Positions 3,345 to 55,480 of a DNA stretch of 64,000 nt are shown one piece after another; position 1 is the stretch's first letter, and each line of letters opens with the position of its first letter. The notes under the pieces were generated by a model that saw nothing but the letters and a program-made list of their open reading frames with translations, ran no database searches and was not told the DNA's origin. A program made the translations under genes and the position numbers. Location: contig CATLDC010000003.1 in assembly GCA_949902595.1 (NCBI GenBank), forward strand, positions 116,153 to 180,152, given 5' to 3'. The DNA comes from an uncultured Candidatus Melainabacteria bacterium. Lineage in GTDB: Bacteria; Cyanobacteriota; Vampirovibrionia; Gastranaerophilales; Gastranaerophilaceae.

Positions 3345-3431
3345 ATCTTACCTCATGTTTATACTATCATAAAAATTGTATGAGTGGTGAATAGTTAAAT
3401 GCTGTAACTTGACTAATAATGAATTGTCGTT

Positions 3432-3467
3432 GCACCCCACCCTAGCCCTCTCCATCAAGGGAGGGAA
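3432..3467. repeat. copy of dispersed GC-rich intergenic repeat (CCCCACCCTAGCCCTCTCCATCAAGGGAGGG)
   Basis: Closely matches 46271-46312; related copies at 55366-55402 and 55441-55480. Confidence 0.7.
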
Positions 3468-3487
3468 CAAGTTTAAAGGAGGTAATT

Positions 3488-45732: not shown

Positions 45733-46404
45733 CTACAAGCGCACAACCGCAAAATGACGCTCACTCGTTCCGTTTTCCCTGCGGTATGAGTAGAACAAAT
45801 CATTGTCGCAGCTTGTACAATAAGGGCAAATATCAATCTTCTCAACCCCGGCTTCCTGAAGCTGACGAGCGTTGATTTTTTTGAGGTCAACATGCCGGTC
45901 TTGAAAAAGCCCTGACCTGTCATTCACAGTGCTAAGCAAAGTGTCCCGCACTTCCTCCGAGACCTCGTAGCAGCAGATTGAGATTGCAGGGCCGATTACA
46001 GCAATAATGTCTTTCGGGTTTGAGCCCATTTTTTGAACGGTCTTTAACCCGATTTTTGCAGCTGTACCGCGCCAGCCGGCGTGTGAGACTGCTGCAATTT
46101 TTTGTTTGGTATCATAAAGAATCAAGGGCGTGCAGTCTGCAAACTTAAGGTAGATTGCATCATCGTGATTTGAGAGTATAAGTCCGTCTGTGTCAGGGTA
46201 TTCAGCTCTTGAGTCCACAAATTCCACATGGTCGCTGTGGGTCTGTGTTGGTGTGATTATGCGCTTTGGCTGCACCCCACCCCAGCCCTCCCCATCAAGG
46301 TAGGGAGCGAAGCTAAACCCGCGCGTGGTAAAAAACGCGGTAATCCCGTCCAGAAAATCGCTCTTTAATACTCTTCTTCCTGCAAAATCGTCAAAATAGA
46401 ACAT
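45733..46404 (-). CDS. pgeF: PgeF/YfiH (laccase-domain) family protein with in-frame repeat insertion
   Basis: TQTHSDHVEFVDSR...FADCTPLILYD...AAVSHAGWRGTAAKIG...IGPAISICCYEVSEEV. Confidence 0.9.
   Translation of the reverse strand: MFYFDDFAGRRVLKSDFLDGITAFFTTRGFSFAPYLDGEGWGGVQPKRIITPTQTHSDHVEFVDSRAEYPDTDGLILSNHDDAIYLKFADCTPLILYDTKQKIAAVSHAGWRGTAAKIGLKTVQKMGSNPKDIIAVIGPAISICCYEVSEEVRDTLLSTVNDRSGLFQDRHVDLKKINARQLQEAGVEKIDICPYCTSCDNDLFYSYRRENGTSERHFAVVRL
46271..46312. repeat. dispersed GC-rich repeat copy inside the pgeF CDS
   Basis: TGCACCCCACCCCAGCCCTCCCCATCAAGGTAGGGAGCGAAG vs intergenic TGCACCCCACCCTAGCCCTCTCCATCAAGGGAGGGAACAAG at 3431-3471. Confidence 0.8.
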
Positions 46405-55318: not shown

Positions 55319-55365
55319 ATACTATCTTGTGGGTTAAAAAGCAACTCCCTGAGCGACTTTTGCAT

Positions 55366-55402
55366 CGCCCCCTCTCCTTAGGGAGCGGGCTGGGGTGAGG
55401 GG
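55366..55402. repeat. dispersed GC-rich repeat copy
   Basis: CGCCCCCTCTCCTTAGGGAGCGGGCTGGGGTGAGGGG. Confidence 0.6.
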
Positions 55403-55440
55403 TCAACCCCAACCTCCTAAAACCCTTACACAAAAGGCTA

Positions 55441-55480
55441 TACCCCACCCTAACCCTCCCCATCCAGGGAGGGGACGCGC
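55441..55480. repeat. dispersed GC-rich repeat copy
   Basis: TACCCCACCCTAACCCTCCCCATCCAGGGAGGGGACGCGC. Confidence 0.65.

Follow-up and report, generated by a model that had tools for sequence, protein, structure and literature searches.

How does a dispersed repeat come to be read as codons inside a conserved gene? The question is raised by a 64,000-nt stretch of DNA (the window, whose positions serve as coordinates below) from an uncultured Candidatus Melainabacteria bacterium, in which the gene for the peptidoglycan editing factor PgeF contains a copy of a GC-rich repeat. The source is a metagenome-assembled genome of 2.1 Mb from Gastranaerophilales (99.8% complete), here G000, and the genome of its sister species is G077. 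We consider it very probable that the insert is a repeat of the BoxC/PIT (potential intrastrand triplex) type, copied into the loop between early PgeF strands before the two sister species separated.

A repeat copy inside pgeF

The initial annotation had pointed to a 42-mer at 46271-46312 that nearly matches an intergenic sequence. The 42-mer is present exactly as written, lies between the FFTTR and QTH motifs and contributes in-frame codons to pgeF on the minus strand, and the intergenic copy at 3429-3471 indeed matches it at 33/36 positions (92%). Repeat copies were located with R1, a covariance model of 43 positions made from 33 copies (about nine of them loop copies of relatives, the others from G000). 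Since the pgeF copy is itself part of the training set, its R1 match is not independent, and the same holds for several other coding copies, which were recovered by construction. The parts of the locus are as follows.

45733-46404, minus strand: pgeF (peptidoglycan editing factor / YfiH), 223 aa, ATG start, intact open reading frame (ORF) with the insert FAPYLDGEGWGGVQP
46269-46311, C-rich strand is plus, G-rich strand supplies the codons: BoxC/PIT-type repeat copy in pgeF (R1 match G000:C3:162421-162463, E 1.2e-8)
46286-46292, plus strand: hairpin arm CCCTCCC of stem B, GGGAGGG on the G-rich strand (sequence and triplex-rule scan)
46299-46305, plus strand: opposite arm GGTAGGG, one pair broken at T46301; the sister species has GGGAGGG
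46276-46282, plus strand: third block CCCACCC, the third strand being GGGTGGG on the minus strand (triplex-rule scan)
Predicted tryptic peptide of PgeF covering the insert: GFSFAPYLDGEGWGGVQPK

The gene is not a pseudogene: its ORF is intact and its product matches TIGR00726 above the equivalog cut-off (E 7e-52), as well as PF02578. In the AlphaFold2 model, the predicted fold resembles the solved YfiH/YlmD structures, and the insert forms a low-confidence loop in an otherwise confident protein, with a predicted local distance difference test score of 90 overall versus 53 for residues 31-40.

Structure and identity of the repeat

A DNA search over the whole G000 genome found the repeat at 23 places, and R1 gave 72 matches in G000 and 59 in G077, with matches present in 60/65 genomes of the genus. 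Besides the pgeF copy, three copies lie in the window, two of which (29 bp apart) make an inverted pair of two subtypes.

3429-3471, plus strand: intergenic copy, the top-scoring member, upstream of a glutaredoxin-like ORF (R1 match G000:C3:119581-119623, E 1.6e-9)
55437-55479, plus strand: intergenic copy of the type with CCCCACCC...CCCTCCCC (R1 match G000:C3:171589-171631)
55364-55407, minus strand: copy in inverted orientation, of the type with CCTCACCC...CCCGCTCC (R1 match G000:C3:171516-171559)

The G-rich strand is laid out in three blocks: a pyrimidine stem comes first, the complement of that stem second, and a G-rich block mirroring the second comes last, as in CCCTCCC-TTGATG-GGGAGGG-TTA-GGGTGGG. 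The end consensus is GGGAGGG-AACG (CGTT on the other strand). We scanned the copies with the published class II triplex rule (C-G-G and T-A-A/T, stems of 6-15 nt, loops of 1-6 nt, at most one mismatch; PMC4666352). The rule was satisfied by 126/131 copies from G000 and G077, compared with 0/393 shuffles of those copies; the pgeF copy has a stem of 7 with one mismatch and its counterpart in the sister species a stem of 9. Hairpin covariation gave modest support. By the published rules, the repeat is thus of the known BoxC/PIT/intrastrand triplex motif (TM) type, the triplex itself being predicted from sequence.

Near two paralogous proteins of G000 that start with MTEVNPLLN(G/S)TLAGKIAQKLDAADG, the repeat stands just upstream (loci L044 and L048, at G000:C2:134503 and G000:C3:74053); a second, inverted copy or a remnant of one is also present there, and the upstream region seems duplicated.

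The pgeF insert across the genus

We then compared PgeF across the genus. The protein of the sister species (G077, locus L053) is 96% identical to that of the window, and the remaining congeners show about 60-75% identity. The segment FFTTR...QTHSDHV measures 37 aa in G000 and its sister versus 28-30 aa in most congeners; a few congeners have longer, unrelated loops, and the range over the genus is 25-49 aa. The peptide APxLxGEGWGGVQ is confined to the two sister species and absent from the PgeF of about 50 other congeners. An insertion of about 14 residues had been proposed initially; the shorter loop of most congeners bears out an insertion, but the loop has grown by about 8 residues net rather than 14, and part of the native PgeF loop appears to have been replaced.

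In the sister species, the pgeF DNA at the insert reads CTCCCTCCCTTGAAGGGGAGGGCTGGGGTGGGGTGCAG, a repeat with an undamaged stem. The sharing of the repeat and its undamaged state there indicate that the insertion predates the split of the two species, and that the window copy later lost one stem pair. Between the sisters, the 15 codons of the insert differ by one silent and two replacement changes, and the remaining 208 codons of pgeF by 24 silent and 8 replacement changes. The proportion of replacement differences per replacement site (pN) is accordingly 0.058 for the insert versus 0.016 elsewhere in pgeF, with just three differences inside the insert. The faster change, on these very few changes, would fit a tolerated passenger.

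Given the varying length of the segment, the PgeF loop might also be native coding sequence that is simply variable and GC-rich and happens to look like the repeat. However, no match to the 42-mer at up to three mismatches is expected by chance, the pgeF copy matches as strongly as the intergenic copies, and many further genes hold the same repeat opposite empty sites in the sister genome, as described below, so that we give a chance likeness practically no weight.

Another genome of the genus, G017, has inserts of its own of a similar kind in pgeF (L011) and in the U32 peptidase gene (L208), a judgement made by eye and from similarity of sequence; its genome has a single strong R1 match. In the assembly of G011, pgeF (L029) is broken by a frame change into two pieces, covering query residues 1-126 and 123-223.

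In-frame copies in other genes

The genes that contain a copy were counted by reading the ORFs around each G000 and G077 copy, together with family matches. At least 11 of the 72 G000 copies lie in frame within recognised genes, that is, at least ten besides pgeF; most copies lie outside such genes. The genes concerned are pgeF, pabA/trpG, the U32 peptidase gene, ldcA (muramoyltetrapeptide carboxypeptidase), bioA, ilvD, lipA, fliO and those for asparaginase II, an MBL-fold hydrolase and the radical-SAM protein TIGR03960. In G077, in-frame copies were additionally found in pheT, trmFO and coaE, and copies are probably also present within glycosyltransferase-like and other ORFs. Spurious-looking ORFs or 5' extensions were left uncounted (G000 C6:24320, C5:58495, C12:29719, C5:64542, C2:134503, C3:74053 and C5:74649). 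The affected genes, which include ilvD, lipA, pheT, coaE and trmFO, are read through the copy and, judging from their sequences, would specify enzymes that carry a short loop of foreign peptide.

The coding copies are read on both strands and in several frames, yielding unrelated peptides such as PHPNPPHPGRE, PQPSPQGEG, LTPTLSLGEG, APSPQGEGWGEG and APSPVEERAGVR, for which a literature search returned nothing relevant. Stop-free variants were in excess among the coding copies (Fisher p 0.013), but any copy present in both species was counted twice in this comparison, and we therefore do not treat the excess as proof.

In the region of G077:C131:1607 (L306), one glycosyltransferase-like ORF seems to hold several repeat-derived segments (KLPPHPNPLPEERE, later PTLTPSWIIRGVGG...NPLPAGEG).

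Filled and empty sites

Comparison of the two sister genomes revealed sites that are filled in one and empty in the other. Thus pabA (+33 nt), the U32 peptidase gene (+60 nt) and lipA (+39 nt) are filled in G000 and empty in G077, and trmFO (+39 nt), coaE (+36 nt) and pheT (+6 nt, largely replacement) are filled in G077 and empty in G000; every one of these length differences is a multiple of three. Such pairs, together with the 72 copies in G000, uphold the initial proposal of a dispersed intergenic repeat inserted in frame. Furthermore, the presence or absence of single copies in core genes of sister genomes provides insertion records at base level, which makes the mechanism of spread testable. 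At the trmFO loop that the repeat fills in G077, the gene of another congener (G076, L336) has a different insertion, about 16 aa long.

The codons that flank the copies fail to align with the empty sites, indicating that the events are no simple insertions but combine insertion with local replacement, in which a few native codons are replaced or lost. Compared with miniature inverted-repeat transposable elements (MITEs), which are marked by terminal inverted repeats and a target-site duplication, the filled/empty pairs show this local replacement and no recognisable duplication, and the boundaries of the element are approximate. All of the genomes compared are metagenome assemblies, and the PgeF insert is described here from DNA sequence and predicted structure.

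Copies were also traced beyond the two sister species. The ilvD insert is common to G000, G074 and G059, has lost half of its length in frame in G077, and is absent from G076 and from the best solved homologue. In ldcA, one and the same loop bears different copies in many species of the genus, that of L153 being reversed in orientation; in other species this loop is short. The pgeF and ldcA loops have probably been struck more than once.

The retention of the pgeF insert in both sister species, and of the ilvD insert in at least three species, could also be explained by recruitment, if selection kept the peptide for a useful change in PgeF or the other enzymes. We regard this as quite improbable, since reading in several frames on both strands gives unrelated peptides, the pgeF insert evolves faster than the remaining protein (on few changes), the structural model renders it as a floppy loop, and the ilvD insert has been half deleted in G077.

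Origin and spread

To our knowledge, BoxC/PIT repeats have been on record since the 1990s with no function or means of spread attached to them. Under the reading that we prefer, a BoxC/PIT-type copy placed in the PgeF loop before the sister split, copies would insert widely across the genome, and purifying selection would spare those genic copies that change the length by a multiple of three, keep the frame free of stops and fall in a flexible loop. The inserted peptide would be a drifting passenger rather than a selected domain. As for the route of copying, one guess is template switching of the replication fork at the hairpin or triplex, which would suit local replacement; another option would be an unrecognised transposase acting in trans.

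A recognised transposase was also considered, in that the repeat might be a repetitive extragenic palindromic (REP) element, or a REP doublet (REPIN), moved by a REP-associated tyrosine transposase (RAYT) encoded in the genome. The short palindromes and inverted pairs resemble REP/REPIN elements, RAYT-like Y1 transposases occur in 39/65 genomes of the genus, and a comparable GC-rich repeat is found near a RAYT in one relative (L127). However, we found no Y1_Tnp (PF01797) match in G000, which is 99.8% complete, by a search that was positive in five control genomes, nor in G077, which is 83% complete. Moreover, the RAYT genes of relatives are flanked mostly by GTAG-tagged palindromes of other sequence, and the present repeat has neither a GTAG nor a CGTC tag. 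A RAYT-driven REP element, which we consider unlikely, was rejected on the lack of Y1_Tnp in both sister genomes and on the association of the relatives' RAYTs mostly with other REPs. The RAYT-like Y1 transposases of the congeners (L110-L131) are about 180 aa long, and many lie beside palindromes that carry a GTAG tag and comprise several different sequences (e.g. GTAGGTTGGGCATACCTGCCCAAC).

Returning to the BoxC/PIT reading, a wider proposal would be that these repeats are mobile DNA in the genus, still copying into new sites, essential genes included, with no recognisable transposase, and over time serve as a general source of new protein surface loops. We consider this wider proposal about as likely as not.

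Comparison with known systems

The BoxC/PIT/TM element is known from E. coli and cyanobacteria, and triplex formation by the E. coli motif has been demonstrated in vitro (PMC4666352). E. coli K-12 has 23 copies, reported as always intergenic; in five cases they form inverted pairs of two types (PMC4666352). In our searches, 4437/5426 E. coli genomes had a match to the motif, mostly partial, the best being 92% over 37 nt between ugpB and ugpA. The repeat described here shares with this element the three-block GC-rich class II triplex sequence, the multi-copy dispersed distribution and the inverted pairs of two subtypes. It differs in its location, since the K-12 copies are intergenic, whereas here the in-frame copies (at least 11/72) lie within conserved genes and have filled and empty sister sites. 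The open-access literature that we searched holds no report of BoxC/PIT motifs within coding sequences and none of such an element in Gastranaerophilales.

REPs with GTAG/CGTC tags occur inside ORFs in several species, and their dimers are common (PMC3733652). They are likewise short palindromes within ORFs, but the present repeat is without the tag and has a three-block triplex layout in place of a simple hairpin.

A parallel in behaviour is the Rickettsia palindromic element (RPE), of about 100-150 bp and with a conserved peptide, which has similar elements in Wolbachia (PMC10969869, PMC2229807). The likeness in concept, which had been suggested at the outset, holds: both are short palindromes that sit in frame within numerous conserved genes whose protein products are retained. 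The element here is nevertheless about 43 bp long, differs in sequence and resides in Gastranaerophilales rather than Rickettsiales; moreover, each RPE family encodes a conserved peptide, whereas here several frames on both strands give unrelated ones. Palindromes that add a peptide in frame are best known from Rickettsia and Wolbachia; the present case shows that they also arose in a gut lineage unrelated to these, from a different element. The repeat acts like an RPE but is by structure a BoxC/PIT motif, and, the repeat type itself being already known, what is new here is its location, in frame inside conserved genes.
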